Positions 16,600-53,093 of a stretch of 64,000 bases of DNA are shown here, in pieces. The DNA is taken from positions 62,001-126,000 of the forward strand of contig PYJD01000008.1 of assembly GCA_003635315.1 (NCBI GenBank). The letters run 5' to 3'. Positions within the stretch are counted from its first letter, which is position 1; the number at the start of each line of letters is the position of its first letter. The position numbers and the translations under genes are program-made. The stretch comes from Candidatus Poribacteria bacterium (GTDB taxonomy: Bacteria > Poribacteria > WGA-4E > WGA-3G). The notes below the pieces were generated by a model, which saw only the letters and a program-made list of their open reading frames with translations, was not told the origin of the DNA and ran no database searches.

Positions 16600-17105
16600 A
16601 CTTTTAATCCTAATATACGACAACTTAATAAGGTGCAAAAACAGGTCTTTAATCCTAAATTCCCAGATGATAAATCGTGAAAATGTTGAAATTTTTAATT
16701 CGTCGAAAGAGTGAAAAAAGTTACACTTTTTCCTACATTCTGTAGGATTGAAATTGGTGTAAATTACCCCTCTAACCGATGTCATAGCCTGACTTCACTC
16801 CACCTTGAATAGACTTTATAAGAATTCCCAAAAAGTGTGTTTTTTTTTTGACATTGAATTTTGACAATTACAGCCTGCATAATATAGTTGATTTTTCGAC
16901 ATAAAGATTTTTGTATTTAGGATCATTTTTGTAAATAGTCATCATTTAATCTCTAATTATATACTTCCCATAAAAGTACGGAATTGGAAGATTGGAAGGA
17001 TGGAACTGTGTATGGTGGGTTCAATCCTTACCTACCTTAAAGTGGCTTCTGGTAATGTTAGTTTTTTGAAAAGGTTATTTTCTTCATTTTATTTTACTTT
17101 TATTG
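16600..17105 (+). repeat. Dispersed intergenic element, copy 1
   Basis: About 500 bp that aligns with 47457-48058 and with the reverse complement of 52580-53093. The core (16600-16950) is closest. It contains two TTTAATCCTAA direct repeats (16603-16613 and 16648-16658), hairpin A (16715-16731, AAAAAGT/ACTTTTT), hairpin B directly after it (16732-16746, CCTACA/TGTAGG), and shared blocks such as GAAATTGGTGTAAATTAC and TGTATTTAGGATCATTTTTG. It begins about 196 bp upstream of the subtilase start, pointing away from it. The outer third is weaker but shares an AT-rich TTCTTCATTTTATTTT-like block. Confidence 0.85.
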
Positions 17106-17164
17106 AAAAAGGGTGTAATAAGTGTCATTTTTGCAGTTAACAAAAGTAATATTAATAATTCTTA

Positions 17165-17240
17165 TATGTTTAAAATGTTACACTTTTTGACACATATTGT
17201 GACATTGGTAAAACCGCTGTCCCCTCTGTCACAGTCTTTG
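17165..17240 (+). repeat. Degenerate partial copy of the dispersed element
   Basis: GTTACACTTTTTGACACA and the following imperfect hairpin resemble the hairpin A/B region of the element, closest to copy 3. A CCCCTCTGTCACAG-like segment then echoes the next block of the element. It may be an internal duplication or a fourth, decayed copy. Confidence 0.45.
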
Positions 17241-17412
17241 TTCAAGCGTGTTTTTTTACAATTTTAAAAATTTTGGATTTGTGCGATTTGGTCTCTTACT
17301 TCACCTTTTCTGAAGAATATCAAATACAGACTTTTGTAGGTTAAGCTTTCTTGTTTTTTGTATGATATTGCATGTATTTGATAGTTAGTTAATAGTATAT
17401 TATTGTTATTTG

Positions 17413-17438
17413 AAAAAGTTACGAAATCGTAACTTTTT
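17413..17438. terminator. Hairpin with 11-bp stem, terminator-like on either strand
   Basis: AAAAAGTTACG and CGTAACTTTTT form a perfect stem around an AAAT loop, with an extra T after the right arm. The stem is AT-rich, so it may be a weak terminator or a protein-binding palindrome. The GTTAC...TTTTT sequence echoes hairpin A of the dispersed element. Confidence 0.45.
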
Positions 17439-17767
17439 TCTGTCACCCCAAATTTAGTAACTTGTCTATTAGGTAAGTAGGCACCTATGTTTACAGCCAA
17501 TTTACGAATTTGTAAAAAAAAAATAAAAAAGTGTTCTTGATGGAATCGATAACCCTGAATTCTCCGTTAAGATGTGAGTAAATAGTGATATTTTTATAAT
17601 TTTGTATATAAATTCTTTATTCATAGCTTAGGTATTAGTATAAGTATTGTGATAATTCTCTATCTGTTATTGTAACGTATGTTTTTACTAATGTCAACTA
17701 TTTTACGTATATGTGATATTTGATCTTTCAAATTTCTTCAATTAATTTTGTGTGCTATTTATAAATA

Positions 17768-17825
17768 TGCTACAACCGGCACAATCTAACAGAATGTGCT
17801 ACATCCGGCACAATCTAACAGAATG
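17768..17825. repeat. Tandem direct repeat, 2 x 29 bp
   Basis: Two head-to-tail 29-bp units starting TGCTACAACCGGCACAATC differ at one base (A/T at unit position 8). The unit is much richer in GC than its surroundings. There is no spacer between units, so it is not a CRISPR. Confidence 0.85.
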
Positions 17826-18057
17826 TCTATTATTGGCGAAGGTATTGTATTTTATCTTTATTTTCATTAGAATTGCAATTTTGGATTTAATTTGTTATAG
17901 TTTATCAGTTCGAATTATTTAAAATTTTAGATCTATAATTAGTTCTGTATAGTTTTATTTTAAAGTATACACAAAATATTACATTATTTCAGTAGTATAG
18001 AATCAATGATCTATACAAACAATATACAATCAATATACAATGAGTTAGGAGAAATAA

Positions 18058-19695
18058 ATGAAAGCATCAGAACTGATGGTTAAATGTTTGGAAAATGAAG
18101 ATGTCCAATATATATTCGGTATTCCCGGTGAAGAGAATCTGGATCTGATGGATGCGTTACTTGAATCCGAGATTGAATTCATTCAGACACGAGATGAACG
18201 TGGTGCTGCATTTATGGCGGATGTGTATGGTCGGTTAACGGGTTTGGCAGGCGTATGTCTTGCTACCCTTGGTCCTGGTGCAATGAATCTTGTTACAGGT
18301 GTGGCAGATGCAAACATGGATAGAGCTCCACTTGTCGCTATAACGGGTCAAGCAAGTTTAGATAGGATGCATAAGGAATCACACCAATACCTGGATGTTG
18401 TATCTGTATTTAAGCCGATGACGAAATGGAATACACTCATCCATCTACCTGAGATAATCCCAGAATCAATTAGTAAGGCATTCAAAACTGCAGTGAGTGA
18501 AAAACCTGGTGCAACACATATAGATTTTCCAGAAGATGTAGCGAGTATGCAGATTGATTCAGAACCCATGCGGCATGACTTTCCGAGTGAAGCTGAACCG
18601 GTAGAAGCATGTCTTAAACGTGCTGCCCATCTAATAAATGAAGCCAAACAACCGATTATTCTTGCTGGAAATGGAGCAGTAAGACAAGATGCATCACGTA
18701 TTTTAACCCAATTTGCTGAATTAACAAATATTCCGGTTGCCCATACATTTATGGGAAAGGGGTGTATACCTTGGACCCATAGACTTTCTTTATTGAGTGT
18801 TGGGTTACAAGCACATGATTATGTTTCTTGTGGTTTTGATAGGGCTGATCTCGTGATTGCAGTTGGGTATGATATTGTAGAATACCATCCTCGACTTTGG
18901 AACCCTAATCAAGATAAAAAAATAATACACATTGATACTCAACCCAGTGAGAGTGATTCTTCCTATATCACGGATGTAGAAATGGTTGGTAATATAAAAC
19001 AAAGTCTTAGACATCTGATGAGAGAGGAGATTTATCCGAAAGACTCTGATTATGCATCAAATACTTTAAGAAAGATAATTCTCGATCAATTATCTGATTA
19101 CAGAGAAGATAAAGAATTTCCAATAAAACCACAAAAGATCTTAAGTGATATACGTTCTGTACTTGCAGAAGATGATATTCTAATTTCTGATGTTGGTGCA
19201 CATAAAATGTGGATAGCCAGGATGTATCCTTGCTACCAACCAAATACATGCATTATTTCAAATGGGTTTGCTTCGATGGGAATAGCAGTCCCTGGTGCAT
19301 TTGTTGCTAAACTAATTTATCCTGACCGAAAATGTTTGGCAGTTTGTGGTGATGGGGGATTTCTCATGAACTCTCAAGAGATTGAAACTGCGACCCGTGT
19401 TGGTGTTCCATTTGTCACACTCATTTTCAACGATGAAGCGTACGGACTCATTGAATGGAAACAGATGAATGGTTTTGGCAGACCAGCCCATATAGACTTC
19501 ACCAACCCAGATTTTGTAAAGTATGCTGAGGCGTTTGGTGCAAAGGGTTATCGGGTAGAAGGGAGTGATGAATTGATTCCAATTTTAAATGATGCTTTTC
19601 AACAAAATGTACCCTCTGTCATCGATTGTCCTGTTAATTATGCTGAGAATTTGAGATTGACAGATGAATTAGGACAGCTGACTTGTCCTATATGA
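18058..19695 (+). CDS. Acetolactate synthase-like thiamine-diphosphate enzyme
   Basis: A 545-aa ThDP-dependent enzyme of the acetolactate synthase / AlsS type, expected to condense pyruvate to 2-acetolactate. The three ThDP domains are present. The N-terminal pyrimidine domain has the activating Glu47 (RDERGAAFM). A central domain follows, then the C-terminal diphosphate domain with GDGGFLMNSQEIETA and NDEAYGL (the Asp replaces the usual second Asn). It has no adjacent small regulatory subunit or other ilv genes, so a catabolic AlsS-like role or another ThDP reaction (such as glyoxylate carboligation) fits as well as branched-chain amino-acid synthesis. TTAGGAG seven nt upstream supports the start. 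Confidence 0.85.
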   Translation: MKASELMVKCLENEDVQYIFGIPGEENLDLMDALLESEIEFIQTRDERGAAFMADVYGRLTGLAGVCLATLGPGAMNLVTGVADANMDRAPLVAITGQASLDRMHKESHQYLDVVSVFKPMTKWNTLIHLPEIIPESISKAFKTAVSEKPGATHIDFPEDVASMQIDSEPMRHDFPSEAEPVEACLKRAAHLINEAKQPIILAGNGAVRQDASRILTQFAELTNIPVAHTFMGKGCIPWTHRLSLLSVGLQAHDYVSCGFDRADLVIAVGYDIVEYHPRLWNPNQDKKIIHIDTQPSESDSSYITDVEMVGNIKQSLRHLMREEIYPKDSDYASNTLRKIILDQLSDYREDKEFPIKPQKILSDIRSVLAEDDILISDVGAHKMWIARMYPCYQPNTCIISNGFASMGIAVPGAFVAKLIYPDRKCLAVCGDGGFLMNSQEIETATRVGVPFVTLIFNDEAYGLIEWKQMNGFGRPAHIDFTNPDFVKYAEAFGAKGYRVEGSDELIPILNDAFQQNVPSVIDCPVNYAENLRLTDELGQLTCPI

Positions 19696-19791
19696 ATTGG
19701 ATATCTAAATGAAATGACCCAAATTTAGTAGAATCTGGGTATTATCCGAACATAACCGATATAAATAATTTTTGAAAGGTGATAAACTGAA

Positions 19792-20832
19792 ATGGCTTTT
19801 TCAACAATAGAATGGGATAATGGAAGGATTAAATTGATTGATCAGACATTATTACCAAATGAGTTCAAACATATTTATTGTGAAGATCTCCCATCTATAT
19901 GGGAAGCAATTAAATCTTTACGTGTTCGAGGTGCACCGGCAATTGGGATTGCGGGAGCACTTGGTGCAGTACTCGGTATATGGAATTCATCTGCGGATAC
20001 TTATGAAGCATTTTCATCCGAATTAAAAAAAGCAACGGACTACCTTGCAACATCAAGACCAACTGCAGTTAATTTATTCTGGGCGCTTGATAGAATTACA
20101 CGAACAGCAGAAGAGAATAGTAAGTTATCTATTCCAAAAATAAAGAATATACTTTTGGCAGAAGCACAAGCTATTATAGAAGAAGATAAAGCAATGTGTC
20201 GTGCCATTGGTAAACATGGCATGGCATTACTCAATGAAAATGATACAATTCTAACACATTGTAATGCAGGAGGATTAGCAACATCTGATTATGGAACAGC
20301 CTTGGCAGTTATGTTTAGTGCCCATGAAGCCGGTAAAAAGATAAGTGTTTTTGCTGATGAAACTCGACCATTATTGCAAGGTGCTCGACTCACTACGTGG
20401 GAATTAATGCAAGCAGGTATTGATGTTACACTGATATGTGATAATATGGCAGCCCAAGTAATGAAAGAAGGTAAAATCCAGAATGTAATTGTAGGAGCAG
20501 ACAGAATTGCAGCAAATGGAGACACTGCAAATAAAATTGGGACATATAATGTTGCTATCCTTGCCGAAGTACATGAGATCCCATTTTATGTTGCAGCACC
20601 AACTTCAACACTTGATTTTAATCTTAAGACTGGTGCAGAAATTCCAATTGAACAACGTTCCTCTGAAGAAGTAACGGAAGGGTTTGGTCAGGTAACAGCC
20701 CCAGAAGGGGTGAAAGTTTATAGTCCTGCTTTTGATGTTACCCCTGCTTCCTTAGTCACAGCCATTATAACGGAGAAAGGAGTTGCACACCCACCATTTA
20801 CTGAGAGTCTTAGGTTAATGTGTCAACAATAG
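19792..20832 (+). CDS. mtnA: Methylthioribose-1-phosphate isomerase
   Basis: Converts S-methyl-5-thioribose 1-phosphate to methylthioribulose 1-phosphate in the methionine salvage pathway. At 346 aa it is of normal length. Visible signatures are VRGAPAIGIAGALG, the catalytic Cys157 in HCNAGGLAT, DETRPLLQGARLT, and the catalytic Asp237 in VGADRIAANGDTANKIGT. A GAAAGGTGAT sequence lies upstream of the ATG. It follows the acetolactate-synthase-like gene by 96 nt and converges on the amidohydrolase gene 15 nt beyond its stop. No other mtn genes are present in the window. Confidence 0.95.
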   Translation: MAFSTIEWDNGRIKLIDQTLLPNEFKHIYCEDLPSIWEAIKSLRVRGAPAIGIAGALGAVLGIWNSSADTYEAFSSELKKATDYLATSRPTAVNLFWALDRITRTAEENSKLSIPKIKNILLAEAQAIIEEDKAMCRAIGKHGMALLNENDTILTHCNAGGLATSDYGTALAVMFSAHEAGKKISVFADETRPLLQGARLTTWELMQAGIDVTLICDNMAAQVMKEGKIQNVIVGADRIAANGDTANKIGTYNVAILAEVHEIPFYVAAPTSTLDFNLKTGAEIPIEQRSSEEVTEGFGQVTAPEGVKVYSPAFDVTPASLVTAIITEKGVAHPPFTESLRLMCQQ

Positions 20833-20847
20833 TATGACATTATTAAC

Positions 20848-22137
20848 TTAAGCTGCTTTTGCAATATTTGACCGTGTGCCCTCAATATCGAAACATTCAT
20901 ATTGGTTCTTATTCATAATACGATTTGCAAATGTGATGGCTTGTTTCTCAGTCATATATCCGTCCTGAATTTCCTCTTCAAGTGCACGTCGAATTTCGTT
21001 TCTTGCCTGAATGGCATATGCCATAGCACTTGTGGGCCAACCCGTGTCACCACCGAATGCAAACAACTTATTTGAAGGCACAGCATGAATGCACCTACGA
21101 AGGAAATCACGTGAGCTATATGGATCGATACTCCATGCCCAACAAAAATCAACCCATATATTACGATAATGTTTTGCCAAAGCTACCAACTCATCATTAT
21201 ATGGATATGAGATATGCATTAGTACAAATTTTGCATCTAAGTAACGGCTAAATAATGCACACATATTTCCAGCAGGAATTCGACTAACAGGCATACGATT
21301 ATTCCCAGCATAATAACCTGTATGGATTTTAAATGGTAGGTTATGTTCTATAGTTAGTTCTACACCTCGTGCCCAACACCAATCCCCAAGACACAGACGT
21401 GTTTCTACATCAATTTCTTCACCAGAATTAGTTAAAACTTTTTGTAAAGCTGCTGATGCTTCTTCATCAGAACGTTCTACCCAATTGAGAGTTCGATTAT
21501 AGGCATGTTGTGATTTTACAGCAATAGCATTTGGACCATGCTTAGCAAAAAGTGCATCCATACCTGATTTAAGTGAAGAGAGATCATTCACATCAATACC
21601 CACTTCTGCATGAATACTCTTCTGATCTATTTGTCCATTACAGAAGGTTGCCCATGATAAATCATATAAGAAGAAGTCTGGACCAGAAGTATCAGGATCA
21701 CAATTCCAACTAAAATCATCCGTTTGAATATGATCAAGATTTGCCATATCATGTAATATTTCAAGACGTTTCCCAGGAGTTTGTATTTTTTTCACTTTTT
21801 GCTGTGCAGCAGTAAGATCTTTACCAGTAAGTTCATCAAGTCCATAGATATGTTTAGCAATTAGACTAACAGCTTCACCATAACCAGTAAATTGAGTTGC
21901 TTCCCATGCGTCCCGTATTCCTTCAAACCTGGAATCGATGTCTTTAGTAGTATCCATTAGGTTACTCATTGCTTCAGGTGAAGCCCCAGCAGTAATTAGA
22001 TCAGCGGGAACATAATTACCGAATAAATCTTGAAGGATGTCTGGACCGTTTTCAACCCAATCATTTTCACGGCGCATATGTTCATGGGTATCAACTAAAG
22101 GTATAGATTGAATATGGTGAGTTAAATCCGTAGGCAT
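20848..22137 (-). CDS. Amidohydrolase-family TIM-barrel metal enzyme
   Basis: A 429-aa protein of the amidohydrolase-related superfamily. It has the metal-binding HxH near the N-terminus (LVDTHEHM), further histidines in FKIHTGYY and LMHISYPY, and the late aspartate in FGGDTGWP. The mix of features recalls uronate isomerase-like and Amidohydro_2 decarboxylase or hydrolase families, so the reaction is open. AAGGAG lies about 7 nt before the ATG. It is a single-gene unit, convergent with mtnA. Confidence 0.8.
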   Translation of the reverse strand: MPTDLTHHIQSIPLVDTHEHMRRENDWVENGPDILQDLFGNYVPADLITAGASPEAMSNLMDTTKDIDSRFEGIRDAWEATQFTGYGEAVSLIAKHIYGLDELTGKDLTAAQQKVKKIQTPGKRLEILHDMANLDHIQTDDFSWNCDPDTSGPDFFLYDLSWATFCNGQIDQKSIHAEVGIDVNDLSSLKSGMDALFAKHGPNAIAVKSQHAYNRTLNWVERSDEEASAALQKVLTNSGEEIDVETRLCLGDWCWARGVELTIEHNLPFKIHTGYYAGNNRMPVSRIPAGNMCALFSRYLDAKFVLMHISYPYNDELVALAKHYRNIWVDFCWAWSIDPYSSRDFLRRCIHAVPSNKLFAFGGDTGWPTSAMAYAIQARNEIRRALEEEIQDGYMTEKQAITFANRIMNKNQYECFDIEGTRSNIAKAA

Positions 22138-22262
22138 TTGTCTACTCCTTATTATCCTGTTATGAAGAATATCAATTGGGTGTCAATTAATTTGCGTAAT
22201 TATAAGTACTCAAATAAATGGAATATTGTTATGATTAAATTGATTGAAATAGAAATTCAACC

Positions 22263-22292
22263 TTGACAAATGAACTTAGTATAATGTACTAT
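22263..22292 (+). promoter_or_regulatory. Sigma-70-like promoter upstream of the cold-shock/Hfq-like fusion gene
   Basis: TTGACA at 22263-22268, an 18-nt spacer and TACTAT at 22287-22292. An overlapping TATAAT lies at 22290-22295. It would start a leader of about 235 nt. Confidence 0.5.
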
Positions 22293-22298
22293 AATAAC

Positions 22299-22534
22299 CA
22301 TTGTAAATGTAATAACATTAATTTTCTATATTCTTTGAATATGTGTATAGGTGTTTGTATATTGGTATTTTTATATTCAAGTTTGATTTTATTCTATTAT
22401 AGGTAATATCTTTTGTTGTGTCAAAAGAAACATGTAACATATTAAAAAAATGAACAACTTCCATCTTTTCCCTCCACCAATTAACATTAACTTTAGACAT
22501 CTTCCCAATTTCAAGAAAGACGCAGGAGCATAAA
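22299..22534 (+). other. Long untranslated leader of the cold-shock/Hfq-like fusion gene
   Basis: About 235 nt lie between the likely promoter and the ATG with no plausible coding frame on the + strand. It ends in a strong AGGAG site. Long structured leaders are known for cspA-type mRNAs, where they give temperature control. I see AT-rich, possibly foldable sequence here but no specific conserved box. Confidence 0.4.
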
Positions 22535-23458
22535 ATGCCTACAGGACGGATTAAGTACTACAATCCGGATAAAGGATTTGGATTTATAGCTCAAGATAGT
22601 AGTGATGAGGATGTATTTTTACATAGCTCTGCGATTAAACATGCAGAATATGAAGAACTTCGAGTAGGACAACGTGTAAAATATAAAATAGTTGAAGGTG
22701 ATAAAGGGTTAGTTGCCAAGAATGTCGAAGTTTTACTGACACCGACTGAACGTAGATGGTTACGACAGGGAAAGACGATTATCCCACGGGGTTACTCTGG
22801 TTTTCCTTCTCAAAATCAAGATCAGTATTTTGACAGCGATACAGAAATTTCAAAAGATACTGATAGTGGCAATATAAATAACTACCCCTATACGGGTACA
22901 GATGAAAATAAAGAGAAAGGACCTTCTACAGAACGAACTCTACCTACTAATGTAGGCAAAGAACATACCTCCAGACAATTAAGTTTTGGTGATCTGTATA
23001 TTCTCAAACAGATTAACTTTGAAACACCTATGTTCTTCTCTTTATTTGATCATTTACAGTTACCCGCCATTGTATTACAGATGACACTTTCTGGTTTGAC
23101 AGTAAATTCAAATGGTAAGGAGATGATAATACCGAAAAAAGATATAAAATATTGCTATAAGGATATTGATGCAGAAAATGTCCATGCCTTATTAATCTAT
23201 AAAGAAGATATTAAATCCCAACAACTTAAACCTATTGAATCTTCTGAGGATATTTATGTTATTGATTCAGAAATGATCCGTCGTGCAAGGAAGGATGGAA
23301 TTTCAATCGAAGTAATTCTTAGAGAAGGTGAGATATTTCAAGGAACAGTTGACTGGATCAGTCCTTATGAGATAAAAATGGTCTTGAAGAATGGATCGAA
23401 GGTTGTAGTATTCCGACATGCAATTTGTGCTTTTTCAGTTATAGACGGGGAGATGTAA
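22535..23458 (+). CDS. Cold-shock-domain protein with C-terminal Hfq/LSm-like domains
   Basis: A 307-aa predicted RNA-binding fusion. Residues 1-70 are a full cold-shock domain with RNP1 (KGFGFI) and RNP2 (DVFLH). A Ser/Asn/Asp-rich linker (about 85-145) follows. Residues about 150-210 (ILKQINFETPMFFSL, then LSGLTVNSNGKEMIIPKKDIKY) and about 248-303 (ISIEVILREGEIFQGTVDW, then VVVFRHAICAF) look like two Sm-fold domains. The last closely resembles Hfq, with its Sm1-like strand pattern and the KHAI-type Sm2 end. AGGAG supports the start. The YkgJ-type gene follows after one base, so the two are co-translated. Single-copy Hfq is normally a separate protein of about 80-100 aa. Confidence 0.75.
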   Translation: MPTGRIKYYNPDKGFGFIAQDSSDEDVFLHSSAIKHAEYEELRVGQRVKYKIVEGDKGLVAKNVEVLLTPTERRWLRQGKTIIPRGYSGFPSQNQDQYFDSDTEISKDTDSGNINNYPYTGTDENKEKGPSTERTLPTNVGKEHTSRQLSFGDLYILKQINFETPMFFSLFDHLQLPAIVLQMTLSGLTVNSNGKEMIIPKKDIKYCYKDIDAENVHALLIYKEDIKSQQLKPIESSEDIYVIDSEMIRRARKDGISIEVILREGEIFQGTVDWISPYEIKMVLKNGSKVVVFRHAICAFSVIDGEM

Positions 23459-23459
23459 G

Positions 23460-24056
23460 ATGGCTATTGAACCTGATCAGGTCATGACAAAATATAACCA
23501 ACTTGTTTCTGACATCAATGAGGATATAGACAGAATCCGTAATGAATATGGTAAGTATCCCTGTCCAACAGATTGTTTTCAATGTTGCAATAATACTTCA
23601 ACTATTCCAATAAGTGAAGTTGAGGCAAGAGACTTAAAAATTGCATTAGATTCCCTGCCTAAAGAGATCAGGCTACGTATACGTGAAAAGGCATTACGGA
23701 CTATCAATGTATTAGAGAAAAAAGGTTTTACATTAGATTCGCTGGTAAAAGATTCTGGGATGGATGCAATTGAATTTATAAAAGGACAATCCTTTGGACA
23801 GTGTCCTATGTTAATAGGTGGGGTTTGTTCTGTTTATGAACATCGTCCGGTTATCTGTCGTGTATGGGGATATCCAATTGATAATGGAAAAGAATTGGCT
23901 TGTTGTAAGAAGACATTTATAGGACAACGCAGGGATTACAATCCTGTAAAATACTCTCTATATTGGCAGAAATGTAAGACATTAAGCGAAGATTTGGGTG
24001 TGTTCAAGAAGACACCATGCTGTTATTTAGTTTCACAGTTGATTGAAGAACAGTAA
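23460..24056 (+). CDS. YkgJ-type cysteine-cluster protein
   Basis: A 198-aa protein of the zinc/iron-chelating CxxxCxxCC family. Visible metal ligands are CPTDCFQCC near residues 36-44, GQCPMLIGGVCSVYEHRPVICRVWG at about 118-142, and later CCKK, KC and CCYL. Family members are small Fe-S or Zn proteins of unknown activity. It starts one base after the stop of the cold-shock/Hfq-like gene, so coupled expression with an RNA-binding protein is the main clue to its role. Confidence 0.85.
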   Translation: MAIEPDQVMTKYNQLVSDINEDIDRIRNEYGKYPCPTDCFQCCNNTSTIPISEVEARDLKIALDSLPKEIRLRIREKALRTINVLEKKGFTLDSLVKDSGMDAIEFIKGQSFGQCPMLIGGVCSVYEHRPVICRVWGYPIDNGKELACCKKTFIGQRRDYNPVKYSLYWQKCKTLSEDLGVFKKTPCCYLVSQLIEEQ

Positions 24057-24098
24057 GTAAGATTGATTTCAATCACTATCTTCTGTTTAATTTAGAAG

Positions 24099-24116
24099 GA
24101 TTGCCTTTAGGCAATC
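24099..24116. terminator. Bidirectional terminator hairpin between convergent genes
   Basis: GATTGCC and GGCAATC form a perfect 7-bp stem around TTTA, followed by GTTTA. It lies between the YkgJ-type gene stop and the DUF971 gene stop. Confidence 0.6.
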
Positions 24117-24118
24117 GT

Positions 24119-24424
24119 TTATAATTCAATTAATTCACGCAAGAAATCGTAGGTATATATTCCAGTTTTGTGTCCGTCGCTCCACTGAATTCGAATAGCA
24201 TATTTTCCTACCTTCTGTATATTCACGATTTGAAGTTCTTCCCAATATTCCTCTGACGGTAATATCTGTAGAGGATTTTTTTCAATTCTTAATGCATCAC
24301 ATCTGGCACAAGGACAATTTTGTCTTAATATTCGATAGGTGCATTCTGATTCAATTCCATCTTTCCATTGAATAAATAAACTATTCGACAGCCGTCTGAT
24401 TTCAACTGGTTGATATTCATTCAT
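24119..24424 (-). CDS. DUF971 (gamma-butyrobetaine hydroxylase-like N-terminal domain) protein
   Basis: A 101-aa single-domain protein. The pattern of two strands around a CxCxxC motif (NCPCARCDALR) and the closing IQWSDGHKTGIYTYDFLREL are typical of DUF971, which in eukaryotes forms the small zinc-type domain of gamma-butyrobetaine hydroxylase. In bacteria it often lies beside iron-sulfur genes, and here a ferredoxin gene is 45 nt upstream on the same strand, so an Fe-S related role is plausible but unproven. Confidence 0.88.
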   Translation of the reverse strand: MNEYQPVEIRRLSNSLFIQWKDGIESECTYRILRQNCPCARCDALRIEKNPLQILPSEEYWEELQIVNIQKVGKYAIRIQWSDGHKTGIYTYDFLRELIEL

Positions 24425-24469
24425 TTTAATTTAATGTATGCCGATCTGAAGAACGCTGTTTAGAATCCT

Positions 24470-24733
24470 TTATAGGAAGTAATCAGCGTTCATTTGCGTG
24501 TAATGCTCCCATTCATCTGGAACATCTTCTTCCATGAAAATAGCCTCGACAGGACACTCAGGTTCACACACACCACAATCTATACATTCTTGAGGATCAA
24601 TAAAGAGTTGATTTACCAATTGATATTCCTCTGGATTATCAATTGGATTGGGTTGTATACAATCTACAGGACAAACATCTATACATGCATTGTCTTTTAG
24701 ATCAATACAAGGCTCACATATTACATAGGTCAT
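24470..24733 (-). CDS. Seven- or eight-iron ferredoxin (two 4Fe-4S-type motifs)
   Basis: An 87-aa electron-transfer protein. The first cluster motif is ICEPC...ACIDVCPVDCIQP and the second is ECIDCGVCEPECPVEAIF. The uneven first motif, with extra residues between the cysteines, matches FdxA-type 7Fe ferredoxins of Thermus and mycobacteria, where that site holds a 3Fe-4S cluster. GGAAGAG lies just upstream of the ATG. It is probably co-transcribed with the DUF971 gene. Confidence 0.92.
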   Translation of the reverse strand: MTYVICEPCIDLKDNACIDVCPVDCIQPNPIDNPEEYQLVNQLFIDPQECIDCGVCEPECPVEAIFMEEDVPDEWEHYTQMNADYFL

Positions 24734-24913
24734 ATTTTCTCTTCCTTCACAATAGCGTCTGGACTTTATGATCTATGTGAAACTACATTCCTAATATTAG
24801 CATATTAGGAGAGTAATATCAATTCTTACAAGAACCTAATTTCATAGTATCTTCAAATGTGTTATTCTAAAATCTTTTTATTGGTTCATGTAAGATCAAG
24901 TTATACAGATTAA

Positions 24914-44797: not shown

Positions 44798-44814
44798 TAA
44801 GTATTACAACCAGT

Positions 44815-45594
44815 TTACATATTGAAGTTCCATGCATTGGTACTATATTTTGAGTCAGCTAAATCACGTGCTTTTTTAATTTCTATATCTGTAAGTTCAT
44901 CATCATTAAATTCCATATCAAAATCCAATGTATTTGAAATTACGGTTATCAGATCCTCTCTTTGGATGGATCTCCCATTTTTATTAATTGCAGATGATTC
45001 GTCTAATAATTGCCCTTGAACGATAGAATCCTTTGATGCATTTCTAAGCATTATATCTGTGGGTATATCTAATGAGATATATCCCTGAAACAGAAATCCA
45101 TTTCTATTTCGTCTAACAGATACACCTGCAACTTTATTCCCATCACATGTGACATCATGCTCTGCAATGTTGATTAGACAATTATTCTGGGATGAAGTAT
45201 CCCTATTGGTTAAATTAATATCTGTTTGAATTCTTAACTTACTTAATGCTAATTTTAGATCCCGACCAATAGATTGATATATTTCGGAGATTCGCATCTC
45301 ACTGTTTTCTCGAGGAAGAATTAATGTGTAGGTGAGATCCCAGCCATGTATTACAGTTCCTCCACCTGTCATCCTTTTAACTAACTCTATACCTTCAGTG
45401 AAACACAAGTCAACATCAACTTCCGAATGAATATCTTGGAAATACCCAAAACTATATGCTGGAGATTCCCAATCATAAAATCTAAGTGTAGGATTTGGGT
45501 GATTGAACTGTGCCATCATGATTGACTCATCAATAGCCATATTCATAGCAGCACAATTCTTACCCATTCTCAGAAGTCGTCCGATTCTTTTCAT
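44815..45594 (-). CDS. Lipoate-protein ligase / octanoyltransferase family protein (LplA/LipM-like)
   Basis: A 259-aa member of the biotin/lipoate-protein ligase fold, which attaches lipoate or octanoate to carrier domains. Visible motifs are NMAIDESIM, LRFYDWESPAYSFGYFQ, the nucleotide/acyl loop RMTGGGTVIHGWDLTYTLI, and KVAGVSVRRNRNGFLFQGYI with the conserved Lys. The short length and lack of a C-terminal accessory domain leave LipM or small LplA equally possible. The ATG overlaps the preceding stop by one base (TAATG), arguing for this start over an upstream GTG and for translational coupling. Confidence 0.88.
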   Translation of the reverse strand: MKRIGRLLRMGKNCAAMNMAIDESIMMAQFNHPNPTLRFYDWESPAYSFGYFQDIHSEVDVDLCFTEGIELVKRMTGGGTVIHGWDLTYTLILPRENSEMRISEIYQSIGRDLKLALSKLRIQTDINLTNRDTSSQNNCLINIAEHDVTCDGNKVAGVSVRRNRNGFLFQGYISLDIPTDIMLRNASKDSIVQGQLLDESSAINKNGRSIQREDLITVISNTLDFDMEFNDDELTDIEIKKARDLADSKYSTNAWNFNM

Positions 45595-46226
45595 TAGGAT
45601 AATGGAACACGACACACAGCAGTTGAATGTGCATCACAATACCAGAAATACCCATCCCAATATGTCATTCCATGAGGTTCGGGGTGTGGTTCAGGAATAT
45701 CTATTTTTCCAAGTTTAGATCCATCCTCAGGATTGAGACGATAGATAGCACGGTGATTTGTTTCAATACACCAAAGATCATCATCCACCCAAGCCAACCC
45801 GTGTGGTCTGTCATCAGGGGCGGGTATGGTATGAATAACCTTAAAATCGTCTTCCACATCTACTTGATATATTGTGGCTGTTGGAGGTACAGCAACCCAT
45901 AATTTGTTATCTCGCCATTCAAGTCCATGTGCACCCGTCTCACCTGCCCCTGGTGTTTCATAGGTGTCGATTGTTTCTCCATTTTCAGGGTTAGCAGATA
46001 GAATTTGACAGCTATAGGTAGAAGCTAACCAGAGTGTATCTCCTGTATCTGTGATGCCACTTCCTCGATCTGAATCCGTATCGAAGGCTTTCTTTACTTC
46101 ACCATCAAACGAAACCAAATGAACTTCATTACTATGTTGATCAATTATCCACAATCCATCTTCAGTAGCCTGCATACCATTTGGATGGGGTCCGGGTGAG
46201 TCAAACAGTCTTTCTACTTTTGACAT
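45594..46226 (-). CDS. Beta-propeller protein (virginiamycin B lyase / SMP-30-like)
   Basis: A 210-aa cytoplasmic-type protein built of repeated blades such as GLWIIDQHSNEVHLVSFDG, DTLWLASTYSCQILSAN, NKLWVAVPPTATIYQVD, DDLWCIETNHRAIYRLN and YFWYCDAHSTAVCRV. Short propellers of this type include glutaminyl-cyclase-like and Vgb-like proteins; no catalytic set is certain. GGAG eight nt before the ATG at 46226 supports this start over an upstream TTG. It overlaps the lipoyl-ligase gene by one base. Confidence 0.75.
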   Translation of the reverse strand: MSKVERLFDSPGPHPNGMQATEDGLWIIDQHSNEVHLVSFDGEVKKAFDTDSDRGSGITDTGDTLWLASTYSCQILSANPENGETIDTYETPGAGETGAHGLEWRDNKLWVAVPPTATIYQVDVEDDFKVIHTIPAPDDRPHGLAWVDDDLWCIETNHRAIYRLNPEDGSKLGKIDIPEPHPEPHGMTYWDGYFWYCDAHSTAVCRVPLS

Positions 46227-46390
46227 AATACTACTCCATATTAGAATTTTAGGGAATTGTAAGTACAATAAAAAAATGTGTCAAGTTATTTTGATCTCAA
46301 GTAGATTCCCTGAACAGCAGCAGTGTGAGTAGACCTTGGGGCTTAAATTAAGCGGATGACAGCTCTGTAAAAATAGAATAGTGTGGGTAA

Positions 46391-47302
46391 TTATCTTTTT
46401 TTCAACGTACCCCAGACCGTAGTCAACTTATCTTTATGTTCCACAGCGAGACCTGTATTAGATTGATAATTTTGATTGATTTCTGCTTCAGTTAGGGGTC
46501 GATCGTAAATGCGGACTTCATCAATTATCCCGTTAAAAAAGCCTTCGGCTTTACCACGATTATTTCCAGCACCAAGATACACAGGATCAGTGAATGGCAC
46601 ATATTTGTATTGAGCATTTTTAACTAATGGATTAAACACTGAAATCCGATTCAGAGTTCCATCAATAAAAAACGCGCGTTCAGTCTGTTCTGCCCCGTTC
46701 TTATCTACAGGTTTAGTCGTATAGACGAGGTGATGCCATTCACCATCTGAAATTGGATATTCACCCCTAAGAAAGGAAAGTGAACACCCATTTTTATTTT
46801 TAAAAAGAGATGGCAAATAAAGTTGAATGAAATCCTCTGTAAAAATAATCCGAGGACCAAAAGGATCGAGCTTAAGATCTTCGAGATCAACCATCTTTCT
46901 GTTAATATCTATTCCCCATATCATAACCGATTTATCACAGTTGCTGCCTATAGTTTTGATAATTGTTGACCAATTGTCTTTGTAATCGGTTTTAATCCAT
47001 GCTTCAAACGTAGAATGATCGAGTTTAGCACCAAAATCGCCAAGCGTCGTGAGATTCACATAATCTTTGATACCATCAAATTTAAGGGCATCTTTCAGGT
47101 GTCCTTTGACAATTGATGGGTTTCCTACGATGGTTGCATTGTTTTCACCCCACACGTCTTTGACTGTATTATCAACAATATCACTTTGATCAAAGGTCCA
47201 ATAACTTATAAGTCCATCGGTTACGATATTCTCCGCGACTGTAATGCCACCCAACCCAACAATAAATACAGCGAGTGTCAAAACAATGATGAGTGATTTC
47301 AT
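46391..47302 (-). CDS. Exported LamG / concanavalin A-like lectin protein
   Basis: A 303-aa exported protein. A signal peptide (MKSLIIVLTLAVFIVGLGGITVA) is followed by a LamG jelly-roll: LISYWTFDQSDI, GKHLKDALKFDG-like block, STFEAWIKTD, DGEWHHLVYTT and the closing GIIDEVRIYDRPLTEAEI. Such domains bind carbohydrates or serve as adhesion modules. The ATG at 47302 has AAGGA eight nt upstream, so an earlier in-frame TTG is rejected. Element copy 2 begins about 155 bp upstream. There is no sorting domain at the C-terminus. Confidence 0.88.
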   Translation of the reverse strand: MKSLIIVLTLAVFIVGLGGITVAENIVTDGLISYWTFDQSDIVDNTVKDVWGENNATIVGNPSIVKGHLKDALKFDGIKDYVNLTTLGDFGAKLDHSTFEAWIKTDYKDNWSTIIKTIGSNCDKSVMIWGIDINRKMVDLEDLKLDPFGPRIIFTEDFIQLYLPSLFKNKNGCSLSFLRGEYPISDGEWHHLVYTTKPVDKNGAEQTERAFFIDGTLNRISVFNPLVKNAQYKYVPFTDPVYLGAGNNRGKAEGFFNGIIDEVRIYDRPLTEAEINQNYQSNTGLAVEHKDKLTTVWGTLKKR

Positions 47303-47456
47303 AACAATTTTCCTTGTCATATACGGTAAAAGGTTGATGCTCAAAAAGTGTTGAGTGAATTTATAACATACTAACGTTTCAAATTCTACTTAAAAAATAT
47401 ATGAATACATACCTAAATTTCTAGAAATAGCATTAGATCTAATGGTCATAAATTGA
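47303..47456. other. Spacer between the LamG gene and element copy 2
   Basis: AT-rich stretch with no gene. It should hold the LamG gene's proximal 5' region, but I see no clear promoter boxes in it on the minus strand. Confidence 0.4.
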
Positions 47457-48058
47457 ATATTTAATCCTAATATCTCGACATCCTAATAGGGTGCAAAAAC
47501 AGACCTTTAATCCTAAATTCCCTGATGAAAAATTGTGAAAATGTTAAATTTTTCAATTCGCTGAAAAAGTGAAAAAAGTTACACTTTTTCCTACATTTTG
47601 TAGGATTGAAATTGGTGTAAATTACCCCTATAACCTCTGTCATAGACTGACTTTACTCCACTTTGAATTGACTTTTAAGAATTTTCAAAAAGTGTGATTT
47701 TGTGTTTTTGTTGTCCTTGCGAATTTTGACAATTTCAACATGGGTATTATAGTAGATTTTTTGACATAAATAAAGTTGTGGTATTTAGGATCGTTTTTAT
47801 AGATTTTCATCATTAATTCTCTTATTATTTCATTCTCATTAAGGTTATGATTTTGAAGTAGGATTTTCTCATATCATCTAAATATTATGATTCAATTTGT
47901 GCTATGTAATATATGTATGTTAACCTAATTTACCCCAATAAATTTTAATACTTGGAAACACTGTCTTAAATGAATATGCAGATGTTTTACAATATTATGT
48001 ATTGTTAGTTGAAAGATATTGAAATCTTCTTCATTTAATTTTCAACTTTTATTAAAGT
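47457..48058 (+). repeat. Dispersed intergenic element, copy 2
   Basis: About 600 bp aligning with copies 1 and 3. It has the paired direct repeats TTTAATCCTAA at 47460-47470 and 47506-47516, hairpin A at 47573-47589 and hairpin B at 47590-47604. It shares GAAATTGGTGTAAATTACC and TGTGTTTTTGTTGTCC with copy 3, and a distal block CATTAAGGTTATGATTTTGAA with copy 3 as well. It begins about 157 bp upstream of the LamG start, pointing away from it, and ends about 120 bp before the Hen1 promoter. Confidence 0.88.
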
Positions 48059-48176
48059 ATGTATGTAATCAGCATTTGGTAGGTTTTTTACTCATGTTAT
48101 TTAGCATTAATAATTACTGTGATAGAACTGTCTGAAAAACTAAGGCTAAATACCCCTGTATTGTAATAAGTAGCAC

Positions 48177-48205
48177 TTGACAGTATCAACTTAACTAAGT
48201 ATAAT
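48177..48205 (+). promoter_or_regulatory. Perfect consensus sigma-70 promoter of the hen1-pnkp operon
   Basis: TTGACA (48177-48182), exactly 17 nt, and TATAAT (48200-48205), 50 nt before the hen1 ATG. Both hexamers are full consensus, so strong constitutive transcription is expected unless a repressor acts. Confidence 0.75.
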
Positions 48206-48255
48206 GAAAGTCGGTAATGTATCAGTAATACCCTATCTAAGAATACCTGATCAGA

Positions 48256-49653
48256 ATGTTATTAACAATCACCACAACACACACCCCAGCTACAGACCTT
48301 GGATATCTCTTACATAAACATCCTGACAGATTTCAATCATTCAATATAAATTTTGGAAATGCGTATGTATACTATCCTGAAGCCAATGAGGATAGGTGCA
48401 CAGCGGCTTTTTTGCTTGATATTGACTCGGTAGGACTTGTCAGACGTAATCCGGGACAGAGTGTGGCAAATATTTCATTGGCTGAATATGTTAATGATAG
48501 ACCCTATGTTGCATCATCTTTTTTAAGTGTTGCAATTGCTAAGGTCTTTAGCTCTGCCCTATCTGGTAAATGTAAAGATCGACCTGAGCTTGTAGATAAA
48601 CCCCTTCCATTATCAGTAAGATTATCTATCCTACCGTGTAAGGGAGGAAAGAAATTTCTACACCGACTTTTTGAACCCTTGGGTTACAAGGTAATTTCAG
48701 AACGGCATCAACTTGATGAGAAATATCCACAATGGGGTGAAAGTCGATATTATACAGTGACTCTTGAAAATACTTGCAAACTTAACACTTTCCTCTCACA
48801 TCTGTATGTATTGATACCTGTACTTGATGACGAGAAACATTATTGGGTAGATGAAGCAGAAATTGAGAAACTGATTAGATATGGTCAAGATTGGTTAAGT
48901 GAACATCCTGACCATGAGATTATTGTGGGTCGATACTTAAAACATCAAGACAGACTCACCCGTCAAGCACTTACACAATTGGGTGATATTTCTGAAGAGG
49001 AAGATTCAGAAACTATCATTTCAAATGAAGAGCAGGTTGAGCAGAAGATAGGTTTAAATGAACAACGTTTAACAAAAGTTGTGGAAGTTCTAAAAGAATC
49101 AGGAGCACAACGGGTTATTGATTTAGGTTGCGGGGAGGGAAAACTTCTCAGAAAACTCCTATCGGAGAAACAGTTTACTGAAATAGTCGGGTTAGATGTG
49201 GCACATCAGACCTTAAAAATCGCGCATGAACGTCTACATATTGATAGAATGCCAGATAAACAGAAAGAACGTATAAATCTGATACACGGTTCACTAATCT
49301 ATAGAGATAAACGGTTAGAAGGTTATGATGGAGCAGCAATTGTTGAGGTAATAGAACACTTGGATCCATCACGTTTAAGAGCATTTGAGAGATGTATTTT
49401 TGAGTTTGCATCTCCTAAGACTATTGTCTTGACAACACCAAATTTCGAATATAATCAAAAATTTGAGAATCTTTCTGATGGTAAGTTCCGCCATAGAGAT
49501 CACCGTTTTGAATGGACACGCGATGAATTTAAGACATGGTCGTTTAGAATATGCAGTGAGTACAAGTATACTGTTGAATTTCATAATATTGGTGATATAG
49601 ATGAAACTCTTGGTTCACCTACTCAGATGGCAGTATTTACACGTAGTGAATAG
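48256..49653 (+). CDS. hen1: Bacterial Hen1, 3'-terminal RNA ribose 2'-O-methyltransferase
   Basis: Methylates the 2'-OH at the 3' end of cleaved RNA before sealing, which protects the repaired site from a second cut. The 465-aa protein has the bacterial N-terminal Hen1 domain (LLTITTTHTPATDLGYLLHKHP; about 1-245) that supports Pnkp ligation. The C-terminal methyltransferase has the SAM loop VIDLGCGEGKLLRKL and the Mn-binding cluster EVIEHLD plus the later HRDHRFEWTRDEF. It is followed three nt later by pnkp, as in known Pnkp-Hen1 operons. Confidence 0.96.
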   Translation: MLLTITTTHTPATDLGYLLHKHPDRFQSFNINFGNAYVYYPEANEDRCTAAFLLDIDSVGLVRRNPGQSVANISLAEYVNDRPYVASSFLSVAIAKVFSSALSGKCKDRPELVDKPLPLSVRLSILPCKGGKKFLHRLFEPLGYKVISERHQLDEKYPQWGESRYYTVTLENTCKLNTFLSHLYVLIPVLDDEKHYWVDEAEIEKLIRYGQDWLSEHPDHEIIVGRYLKHQDRLTRQALTQLGDISEEEDSETIISNEEQVEQKIGLNEQRLTKVVEVLKESGAQRVIDLGCGEGKLLRKLLSEKQFTEIVGLDVAHQTLKIAHERLHIDRMPDKQKERINLIHGSLIYRDKRLEGYDGAAIVEVIEHLDPSRLRAFERCIFEFASPKTIVLTTPNFEYNQKFENLSDGKFRHRDHRFEWTRDEFKTWSFRICSEYKYTVEFHNIGDIDETLGSPTQMAVFTRSE

Positions 49654-49656
49654 ATC

Positions 49657-52215
49657 ATGCAAATTAAAATACCCAACCCTTCTCTTGTAATACTCATAGG
49701 ACCTTCAGGTTCAGGGAAATCCACATTTGCAAAACAGCATTTTAAATCCACTGAGATTCTCTCATCAGATTTTTGTCGAGGGATTGTCTCTGATGACGAA
49801 AATGATCAATCTGCTACTGAAGATGCATTTGATGTCTTACACTATATCGCTGCAAAAAGACTTGCAGCTGGTAGGTTAACGGTAATTGATGCTACAAATG
49901 TACAAGTAGAAGCAAGAAAGAAATTACAGGATTTGGCACGTCAGTATCATTATCTTACTGTTGGTATAGTAATGAATATGCCTGCCAAACTATGCCAAGA
50001 GAGGAATGAGCATCGTGAGGATAGAAATTTTAAACCCTATGTCATACGCAAACAGATTAGTCAACTCCGTCGGTCAATCCGATCACTAAGACGTGAAGGT
50101 TTCCGTAACTTTGTATATATACTATCATCACCTGAAGAAGCAGAAAATGCAGAAATTGTAAGACAACCTTTATGGACTAATCTGAAAGAATATCACGGTC
50201 CATTCGATATAATTGGGGATGTTCATGGGTGTTATGATGAGCTCATTTTATTACTTGTAGAATTGGGTTATGAAATTCCATCAGAACAAGGAACACCTAT
50301 TTCACATCCAGATGGTAGAAAAGTCGTTTTTCTTGGTGATTATGTGGATAGAGGACCAAAGGTTGTCAATGTACTGAAGTTAGTTATGAAGATGCACCAA
50401 GATGGAATTGCATTCTGTGTTCCGGGGAATCATGATGTCAAACTTGCTCGTGCTTTGAGAGGTAAAAATGTTACGACTACCCACGGATTAGCAGAATCAC
50501 TATCACAATTAGAGAATGAGTCCGATGAATTTAGAGAACAAATTGCTGATTTCATAGAAGGATTGATTAGTCACTATGAACTTGATGATGGGAAATTAGT
50601 TGTTGCACATGCCGGCATGAAAAGAGAATACCAAGGTAGGGCTTCCGGTCGTGTTAGAGAATTTGCACTATATGGAGAAACCACAGGAGAGACAGATGAA
50701 TTTGGGTTACCCATTCGGCTGGACTGGGCAGAGGAATACCGAGGGGATGCAACTGTTGTCTATGGACACACACCCGTTAACGAACCACAATGGATTAACA
50801 GGACGATTAATATTGATACAGGATGTGTTTTTGGCGGAAACCTGACAGCATTACGATATCCAGAAAAAGAACTGATATCTATTGCTGCAGAAAAGACATA
50901 TTATGAACCAGCAAAACCGTTAATTGAAGATGATACCGTCCAAAGTTCACACGAATCGTATCTGAATGAAGGTGTATTAGATATAACCGATGTGTTAGGT
51001 AAACGAATCATCAATACAAGATTGTATCGTAGTATTACAATTAGAGAAGAAAATACTATACCCGCGTTGGAATCTATCAGTCGTTTTGCAGTTGATCCGA
51101 GATGGCTTATTTATCTCCCGCCTACAATGTCTCCTTCTGAAACAAGTTCAAAACCAGATTTTCTTGAACATCCATCTGATGCCTTCAATTATTATAGGAA
51201 TCAAGGTGTACCCAGCATAATTTGGCAAGAAAAACATATGGGTTCAAGGGCAATTGTCATTGTCTGTAAGGATCAAACAATTGTACAGAGACGTTTTGGT
51301 ATCCCATCAGAGTCTATTGGGGTATGTTATACACGTAATGGAAGACCATTTTTCGATGATATTGACCTTGAATCACAACTCCTAAAACAAATTAAACATG
51401 CAATAGATAAACTTGACTATTGGGAGAAATTGGATACAGATTGGATCTGTCTTGATTGTGAATTAATGCCGTGGTCAGTCAAGGCACAAGAACTGTTACG
51501 ACAACAATATGCACCTGTAGGAGTTGCTGGAAGTGTATCCATTTCAGATGCATTGGCTTCAATTGAAATGGCAAAGAACAGAGATATTGATACAGTTGAC
51601 ATGTTAGACGATTTTGTAAAACGCCAGAATGCAGTGAATGAATATATTAAATCGTATCAACAGTATTGTTGGGATGTTGAATCCATATCTGATATAAAAC
51701 TTGCACCTTTTCACTTATTAGCAACGGAAAGTAAAGTATATATCAATAAAGACCATTTGTGGCATATGGAAATGCTCCAGGAATTATGTGAAGCTGTTGA
51801 AGATGATATTCTATATTTAACTTCTTATGGATTAGTTACACTATCTGATGAAAACAGTGAGAATACTGCAATAGAAAAATGGGTAGAACTTACCAAAAAG
51901 GGTGGGGAAGGTTTTGTCGTAAAACCTTTGGATTTTATTACACAAGGAAAAAAAGGTATTGTTCAACCAGCAGTGAAATGTCGTGGCAGAGAATATCTAC
52001 GCATTATTTATGGACCAGAATACACTATGCCAAGATATTTAGAACGACTTCGTTCCAGGGGATTGTCTAAAAAACGGTCACTTGCGATACGAGAATTCAC
52101 TTTAGGTATTGAAGCACTGGAAAGATTTGTCAGAAATGAACCGTTTTCAAAAGTACATGAGTGTGTCTTTGGCATTTTAGCTTTGGAAAGTGAATCAGTA
52201 GATCCGAGGCTATAA
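49657..52215 (+). CDS. pnkp: Polynucleotide kinase-phosphatase-ligase of the Pnkp-Hen1 RNA repair system
   Basis: Heals and seals broken RNA. The 852-aa chain has the three known domains. The kinase (1-170) has the P-loop GPSGSGKS with K21 and S22, plus D38 and R41, the positions I recall as catalytic in the Clostridium thermocellum enzyme. The metallophosphatase (about 180-420) shows GDVHGC, GDYVDRG, GNHD and the late GHTP. The C-terminal adenylyltransferase/ligase (about 480-852) has the nucleotidyl lysine in EKHMGSRA and later GEGFVVKP. The length is close to the 870 aa of the model. It is coupled to hen1. Confidence 0.97.
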   Translation: MQIKIPNPSLVILIGPSGSGKSTFAKQHFKSTEILSSDFCRGIVSDDENDQSATEDAFDVLHYIAAKRLAAGRLTVIDATNVQVEARKKLQDLARQYHYLTVGIVMNMPAKLCQERNEHREDRNFKPYVIRKQISQLRRSIRSLRREGFRNFVYILSSPEEAENAEIVRQPLWTNLKEYHGPFDIIGDVHGCYDELILLLVELGYEIPSEQGTPISHPDGRKVVFLGDYVDRGPKVVNVLKLVMKMHQDGIAFCVPGNHDVKLARALRGKNVTTTHGLAESLSQLENESDEFREQIADFIEGLISHYELDDGKLVVAHAGMKREYQGRASGRVREFALYGETTGETDEFGLPIRLDWAEEYRGDATVVYGHTPVNEPQWINRTINIDTGCVFGGNLTALRYPEKELISIAAEKTYYEPAKPLIEDDTVQSSHESYLNEGVLDITDVLGKRIINTRLYRSITIREENTIPALESISRFAVDPRWLIYLPPTMSPSETSSKPDFLEHPSDAFNYYRNQGVPSIIWQEKHMGSRAIVIVCKDQTIVQRRFGIPSESIGVCYTRNGRPFFDDIDLESQLLKQIKHAIDKLDYWEKLDTDWICLDCELMPWSVKAQELLRQQYAPVGVAGSVSISDALASIEMAKNRDIDTVDMLDDFVKRQNAVNEYIKSYQQYCWDVESISDIKLAPFHLLATESKVYINKDHLWHMEMLQELCEAVEDDILYLTSYGLVTLSDENSENTAIEKWVELTKKGGEGFVVKPLDFITQGKKGIVQPAVKCRGREYLRIIYGPEYTMPRYLERLRSRGLSKKRSLAIREFTLGIEALERFVRNEPFSKVHECVFGILALESESVDPRL

Positions 52216-52579
52216 CCATGATTTAATTCTGTAAATTCAACATAGTTATAAAAAAATGAAGAAAAAATAATAAGACCCATCATACATTTAAAATTGTATT
52301 ACCATCGAAAATTAGACCACTACATAAGACAAGATTGTTATATATTCTCAGTCCAATTAGAAAGGGTAGTTTGAACGCAAAATCAAGAATCTTTATACAA
52401 TTATTTTAGCTGAAGTTGTTATGGAAGCAAATACTCGTAGTGGACAATTTATTCAACAGGTATATAACCAAAAACCATATTCGTCTAAAAAATTAATTGA
52501 CATCTATTGAATTTGAGATAACACACTTGTCTTAAGGTAATGAATTATGGTCAAAAAGACGATGACAGTTTCCATTTCT
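52216..52579. other. Gene-free stretch after pnkp
   Basis: AT-rich sequence with no open frame of note. TATAAC and GTTATA near 52214-52247 could form a weak, long-looped hairpin before an A-run after the pnkp stop. Nothing else is recognisable before element copy 3. Confidence 0.5.
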
Positions 52580-53093
52580 TAAAAAAATAAAATAAAATGA
52601 AGAAAATATATATACCTAACATCTAACATACATATTCTACAAAAGCACAATATCTATTTAAAGTTGTTTCCAGGATAATAGAAGATTTTGATTCAAAATC
52701 ATAACCTTAATGACAAATATCTAATATCAGAAAAATGATGAATATCTACAAAAATGATCCTAAATACAAAAATCTATTTATGTCAAAAAACTGTCCTAAT
52801 TTGCCAGTTGAAAATGTCAAAATCATGTAGGACAACAAAAACACAAAATACCATTTTTTGGAAATTCTTAAAAAGTCAATTCAAAGTACCGTAAAGTCTC
52901 TCTGGTACAGGGGTTATAGAGGTAATTTACACCAATTTCAATGACACACAATGTGTCAAAAAGTGTAACTTTTTTCAAATTTTTGACAAATTGATGAATA
53001 ATACATTGACACGATTTACCTTATGAGTATTTAGGATTAAATGCCTGTTTTTGCACCCCATTTCTTGACTGGATATTAGGATTAAATGTGTGT
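52580..53093 (-). repeat. Dispersed intergenic element, copy 3 (inverted)
   Basis: About 510 bp aligning in reverse with copies 1 and 2. On the + strand the direct repeats read TTAGGATTAAA at 53031-53041 and 53076-53086. Hairpin B (52943-52957) reads GACACA/TGTGTC, a different sequence from the other copies but fully paired. Hairpin A (52958-52974, AAAAAGT/ACTTTTT) is conserved. An extra 9-bp inverted repeat TGTCAAAAA (52954-52962) / TTTTTGACA (52980-52988) would compete with both. The element ends about 150 bp before the beta-helix lipoprotein gene. Confidence 0.88.

Follow-up and report, generated by a model that had tools for sequence, protein, structure and literature searches.

Three copies of a non-coding element in the window

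The window analysed here, a 64,000-nucleotide stretch of a Candidatus Poribacteria genome (assembly GCA_003635315.1, contig PYJD01000008.1, positions 62,001 to 126,000), contains three copies of a dispersed non-coding sequence termed element A. The copies were delimited by alignment and by matches to a profile built from 32 copies, the three window copies included. Copy 1 (16535..17003, minus strand; nhmmer E-value 3.1e-135) lies upstream of a 1342 amino acid (aa) open reading frame (ORF; 12375..16403, minus strand) that a first-pass annotation of this DNA had named a subtilase. Copy 2 (47411..47925, minus strand; E-value 8.8e-149) precedes a 317 aa ORF (46391..47344, minus strand) named LamG in that annotation, and copy 3 (52627..53130, plus strand; E-value 1.2e-116) precedes a 295 aa ORF (53244..54131, plus strand) named there as a beta-helix lipoprotein. 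Each copy has the same orientation as the ORF that it precedes.

The motif TTAGGATTAAA has six exact matches in the window, all of them within the three copies, where they form direct-repeat pairs with a spacing of 45-46 bp. The pair in copy 1 (16603..16658, starts 16603 and 16648, minus strand) marks the gene-proximal edge of the core, and the corresponding pairs are found at 47460..47516 (starts 47460 and 47506, minus strand) in copy 2 and at 53031..53086 (starts 53031 and 53076, plus strand) in copy 3. The aligned copies also have in common the order of a GTAATTTACACC block, a hairpin and a CTGTTTTTGCACC block. As located by alignment and pair counts, the hairpin lies at 16721..16762 (minus strand) in copy 1, 47579..47620 (minus strand) in copy 2 and 52927..52968 (plus strand) in copy 3; its inner stem is of a CCT/AGG type in the first two copies and of a GAC/GTC type in the third, and in every case it is followed by a T-run. 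The first-pass annotation had described three copies with the same ordered features and the same orientation relative to a gene, and that description was borne out. No Rfam family matched the window at its gathering score.

Element A is a genome-wide family with a fixed relation to genes

The genome from which the window is taken comprises 4.33 Mb in 50 contigs. A DNA search gave at least 40 matches (40 of 167 candidates were scored) at 83-100% identity, mostly over ∼ 370 bp. A 20-base core probe, allowed up to two mismatches, recognized 69 places in the genome compared with one for a reversed control pattern; these are the three window copies and 66 further places for which the surrounding stretches were fetched. 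All 69 gave a long profile match of ∼ 330 to 560 bp, with the match at locus L059 being split and that at L061 ending before the gene-proximal end. Copies with three or more mismatches can escape the probe, so 69 is a lower bound. In the sequence around the 69 places the profile identified no further long copies; its other matches there are short ones, to the hairpin module. In all listed cases except L043 the frames that overlap the core are small (61–91 aa), and element A is thus non-coding and non-autonomous. The frame at L043 is a glycyl-tRNA synthetase with a start codon assigned too early, the Pfam alpha subunit domain beginning at residue 122.

The next gene-proximal ORF of at least 90 aa is co-oriented with the element in 67 of the 69 cases, the exceptions being L081 and L085. 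When ORFs of at least 60 aa are counted, which brings in many chance frames, the figure is 58/69. The neighbour on the other side is neutral, with 39 on the plus and 30 on the minus strand. In 65 of the 67 co-oriented cases the last TTAGGATTAAA lies 4 to 598 bp from the ORF. In divergent regions either orientation of the element gives a co-oriented neighbour, and a test by region type is therefore cleaner. In same-direction intergenic regions, delimited by ORFs of at least 120 aa, 39 copies are correctly oriented and two are reversed (p 8e-10). The reversed pair consists of L085 and L091, and in the latter the co-oriented ORF, at 111 aa, falls below the size limit. The remaining copies lie in divergent regions (26), in a convergent region (one, L081) or inside a frame (one, L043). 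Among 233 background intergenic regions 24 are convergent and 27 divergent; element A is thus rare in convergent regions (1/68 versus 24/233, p 0.02) and over-represented in divergent ones (p 2e-6).

The first-pass annotation had named an exported-protein gene downstream of each of the three copies and had offered, as one of two readings, a common regulatory leader for surface proteins. An N-terminal hydrophobic stretch is present in 32/66 downstream proteins compared with 147/417 other ORFs (Fisher p 0.04, with a crude threshold), which is at most a mild excess. Ten downstream proteins picked for their housekeeping appearance were scanned against Pfam (E-value 1e-20). One had no family, and the other nine were assigned to the ABC transporter, glycyl-tRNA synthetase, PurD, cytochrome bd oxidase subunit I, LepA, apolipoprotein N-acyltransferase, class I tRNA synthetase, Dus and ThiI families. 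Because cytoplasmic enzymes (PurD, ThiI, Dus, LepA and two tRNA synthetases) are among the targets, the data support neither a leader for exported proteins nor a specificity for them.

Empty sites in the closest sequenced relative

One copy was used as a query against 58 relatives and gave matches in a single genome, G011, with 70-76% identity among the 11 matches listed. A public pattern scan returned one stretch, from Candidatus Poribacteria SB0202 (JAGFCA010000121.1). The sequence displayed for it is that of G011 locus L097, so G011 is probably the SB0202 genome. The copies in G011 are more diverse and some are fragmentary. The right-hand neighbour is co-oriented in 22 of 25 match rows, is not in two and is absent in one; these rows span 22 loci, after omission of 8 that duplicate places already counted. 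At L097 (124-1660) two tandem, diverged copies precede the RNase P RNA gene.

Could element A be a regulatory leader that these genes have had from their ancestors by purely vertical inheritance and that has diverged in the relatives? Its fixed position and shared, ordered motifs would suit such an origin. However, orthologous upstream regions could be fetched from G011 for 47 of the 69 loci (the rest had no good ortholog, met a contig end or were omitted) and the element was found in none of them at an E-value below 1e-3. Nor was it found, at an E-value below 1, in 13 regions of three other congeners. Moreover, the genes downstream of the 22 G011 loci include no orthologs of the downstream genes studied here, in the sets compared. 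At 36 loci both flanks could be aligned, and the gap between them has a median of 928 bp here and 122 bp in G011; it is more than 400 bp shorter in G011 at 31 of the 36 loci, 182-352 bp shorter at three and longer at two. Taken together with the detection of the family in just one of the 58 relatives, the empty G011 sites contradict a purely vertical leader, which we regard as highly improbable.

Element A is therefore an insertion that occurs many times over, at sites that vary from one relative to another. Because the 47 compared loci have no copy in G011, the insertions most likely arose after the split from the closest sequenced relative. The first-pass annotation had called the copies old. 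They do differ from each other by ∼ 15%, and their insertion is nonetheless most likely younger than that split.

At L073 and L095 the junctions of the insertion are exact on both sides and the inserts measure 702 and 787 bp, a size larger than that of most miniature inverted-repeat transposable elements (MITEs). Both inserts have imperfect terminal inverted repeats (TIRs), with the left ends TACTATCTC and TACCATTTC and the right ends GAGAATTGGTA and GAAATGGTA. The trinucleotide TAA is present at both ends of each insert and is single in G011, and in each case the upstream ORF uses this TAA as its stop codon. The alternative offered by the first-pass annotation, a non-autonomous mobile element, is consequently the part of its proposal that held. 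The annotation had set this apart from a plain MITE placed at random relative to genes; the terminal repeats and target duplication of such an element were found at these two loci, whereas random placement was contradicted by the strict orientation described above.

The core contains a covarying hairpin and is less diverged than the right arm

In the 69 aligned copies the hairpin TTTACAC...GTGTAA, with the inner stem TGACACA/TGTGTCA, has 98.4% of its cells paired compared with 15-45% in slid controls. Three inner pairs change from GAC/GTC to CCT/AGG, on both sides of the stem, in 25–26 copies. Cells changed on both stem sides number 77 compared with 31 in shuffles, and the covariation score is 0.222 compared with 0.087. 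At columns 25–27 and 37–39 of alignment A2 the stem thus has two main states with few intermediates. Both states are also found in a related family, family C, and the state is nearly unlinked to neighbouring variable sites. Indeed, across copies almost no linkage is seen between variable sites separated by more than ∼ 15 bp, whereas linkage between the two arms of the hairpin is tight (r2 0.94). Either an old burst, with independent, site-constrained change at each locus thereafter, or much recombination among copies would account for this pattern. The first is favoured, although two founder types or some exchange must then be assumed for the two-state hairpin. A run of at least five T residues follows the hairpin in 66/69 copies, and several blocks, GTGTAAC among them, are invariant in all 69.

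The pairwise identity of the core has a median of 85% and a maximum of 92.1% across the 69 copies, so no copy is very recent. In the 17 copies in which the right TIR is in place, divergence from the consensus is 0.082 in the core and 0.176 in the right arm (p 1.5e-14), and 107 of 197 core columns are invariant compared with 18 of 140 in the right arm.

Promoter-like sequences in and around the core

Mobile promoters and horizontal regulatory transfer disperse upstream regulatory DNA, and an element that delivers a ready promoter to downstream genes would resemble element A in this respect. In keeping with such a role, TTGACA-17-TACAAT is found on the gene-distal side of the core reference, at a distance of over 200 bp, in 11/69 copies. 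In addition, the neighbouring ORFs at L093, L036 and L055 are just 34-70 bp apart in G011, and insertion into such tight gene pairs may leave the downstream gene in need of a new promoter. Family C fits such a role better: a TTGACA-(16-18)-TATAGT sequence (up to two mismatches) follows the common hairpin in 6/6 of its members and all six are co-oriented with a gene. The core of element A, however, is predicted to contain no promoter directed towards the gene. No copy has a forward sigma70-like match between −150 and +200, and three copies have one between −200 and −150. The clustered match is on the reverse strand, 100–200 bp gene-distal of the core reference in 30/69 copies, and points away from the gene; in copy 2 it reads TTGACA-16-TATAGT (47726-47753). 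A reverse-strand core promoter was itself set aside, as the −10 box is mixed and 14/24 sister sequences lack, anywhere along their length, a reverse match of this kind at 10 of 12. Promoter-like matches in the copy 2 region are no commoner than in shuffles (8 versus 6.3). Delivery of a promoter by element A is thus improbable.

In the gene-proximal flank, 200–400 bp past the core reference, sigma70-like boxes are mostly forward (24 forward and six reverse among the 69 copies; p 0.001). Judged from these boxes, the native promoters seem to be retained in the flank, with the element standing upstream of them.

Related families share the hairpin

A hairpin signature, ATGTNNNAAAAAGTGTAACNTTTT, allowed one mismatch, has 142 matches in this genome, seven in G011 and three, one, one and one in four other relatives. 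Among the matches listed, 20 stretches (L193–L212) with 23 non-A signatures were taken as a sample of two further families. Both are large and non-coding: family C accounts for six of the members, and family D, or sequences similar to it, for 17. In the latter sigma70-like boxes are present in 2/17 and co-orientation with a gene in 12/17, so family D is less oriented than element A (p 0.003). Small ORFs beside the C and D members were considered as possible transposases and rejected, since by eye the frames are the AT-rich sequence of the elements themselves.

A second hairpin module, with a AAAAAGTGTAAC signature, lies in the window at 17172..17237 (minus strand), ∼ 430 bp upstream of copy 1 and in the same orientation, and by eye it is D-like. 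Further upstream of this module is another hairpin, GAAAAAGTTACGAAATCGTAACTTTTTTC, at 17412-17440; GTTAC...GTAAC palindromes akin to it seem, by eye, to recur in families C and D. A separate GGAATTGGAAGATTGGAAGGATGGAACTGTG...-like repeat at 16970-17050 recurs, again by eye, near the copies at L003, L019, L021 and L030.

The genome also contains an abundant family of short palindromic, MITE-like sequences with ends like TATACCATTTCTAA and TTAGAAATGGTATA, which give 368 pattern matches genome-wide compared with five for a reversed control (for example at L053 and L095); the TIR concerned is the one seen in element A. One such unit, judged by eye, seems to lie within the right arm of element A.

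This abundance of ends, together with the TIRs and TAA duplication at L073 and L095, would be expected if element A were a selfish MITE and nothing more. Such an element would have no regulatory role, its position and orientation would be set by insertion-site targeting, for instance of AT-rich, melted or RNA polymerase-bound upstream DNA, and its conserved blocks would serve mobilization. The lack of a core promoter towards the gene agrees with this account, as does the frequency of singleton changes discussed below. However, matches to the shared TIRs do not avoid convergent regions (5/39 intergenic matches versus 1/68 for element A, p 0.02). The core is less diverged than the right arm, and no pair of copies exceeds 92.1% identity, yet GTGTAAC and other blocks have stayed invariant in all 69 copies and hairpin pairing has been kept. 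We consider a purely selfish element somewhat unlikely. The contrasts with the TIR matches and with family D, small as the numbers are, suggest that orientation stems from the content of elements A and C and not from their ends, and hence from selection after insertion.

A model for element A

The reading that we favour, at a probability of about one half, is that element A is a lineage-specific, MITE-like element with a selected, orientation-dependent core acting on transcription of the next gene. According to this model, a non-autonomous element of ∼ 700–800 bp would have inserted at ∼ 70 places, most likely after the split from the closest sequenced relative. Its core of ∼ 340–400 bp would comprise the TTAGGAT-type sites, the covarying hairpin with its T-run and the other invariant blocks, and the copies would sit, in one orientation, directly upstream of the promoter or start region of the gene. 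The core would then act in an orientation-dependent manner on the following gene, through a terminator-like insulator or attenuator hairpin and putative protein-binding sites. With its T-run facing the gene, the hairpin may insulate the gene from upstream transcription or, where the insertion lies between close genes, attenuate it. Insertions elsewhere or in reverse would have been lost, and the core would now be under purifying selection. We infer that the placement bias was made by selection rather than by target choice and that selection acts on the core locus by locus; an effect of the hairpin on transcription of the next gene is predicted from its structure and position.

Several observations weigh against this model. 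With regard to the mobile element, TIRs and TAA could be read at both ends in two loci only, as most other junctions are too diverged. The right TIR is in place, by a criterion of our own, in 17/69 copies, and the left arms fall by eye into at least three classes. In the ∼ 0.9 Mb covered, the ORFs enclosed by matching TIR pairs yielded no transposase: six pairs there hold seven ORFs of at least 200 codons, of which none was assigned by Pfam to a transposase and one had no family. With regard to the hairpin, two of the five covariation measures (pairs with double changes and further pair types) did not exceed shuffles, and a single inherited stem change is counted in many copies. The predicted structure is also weak (approximately −11 kcal/mol, z −1.9 and −2.4, with −12.5 for the opposite strand), a simple scan of the window did not list a terminator for copy 2, and the core offers no forward promoter match in any of the 69 copies. 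With regard to constraint, singleton changes number 0.74 per conserved column and 0.34 per variable one; conserved columns thus show no deficit of them, a result that gives no backing to selection on each copy. The proposal in the first-pass annotation that the shared parts are kept by selection thus finds support in the hairpin covariation and the lower divergence of the core, and is opposed by the singletons.

Relation to known elements and significance

Correia/NEMIS, RUP and ERIC sequences are dispersed intergenic repeats that can influence transcripts; they are shorter and less strictly oriented than element A, and are likened to it here by description and not by sequence. From mobile promoters element A differs in having no forward promoter in its core, and family C fits that class better.

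According to the abstract of a review of the MITE class (PMC2229807), its members can carry RNA structure motifs. Element A is like that class in being non-coding, multicopy and intergenic, with TIRs and target duplication at two loci; it differs in its nearly absolute upstream, co-oriented placement, in a core less diverged than the arm and in the lack of a parent transposase among the ORFs between TIR pairs. Insertion sequences near genes are reported in another study to lie in convergent (18.3%), divergent (28.3%) and same-direction (26.5 and 26.9%) regions (PMC9208149). Element A shares with them insertion near promoters and, on the figures given there, differs from them in its near-absence from convergent regions and in having no transposase ORF. 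PMC3909097 contains none of the terms intergenic, non-coding, repeat element and palindrom. Among the literature titles listed (open-licence papers) no such element in Poribacteria was found.

A broader and more doubtful proposal is that elements A, C and D form a superfamily that spread a structured transcription-control module to promoters genome-wide after speciation. The module would consist of the hairpin with its two interchangeable stem ‘codes’, the nearly invariant AAAAAGTGTAAC block and the T-run. Housekeeping and surface genes would thereby have come under common, orientation-dependent control, a recent and large-scale rewiring of a bacterial regulatory network that a transposable element would have brought about.

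Accounts of bacterial MITEs usually present them as scattered. Here, in contrast, there are ∼ 70 insertions, none of the 47 tested being common with the sister species, and relative to genes they hold a single position and a single orientation. Should the core prove functional, element A would be a case in which a bacterial regulon is being built by a transposable element, directly testable against the empty ancestral sites in the sister genome.

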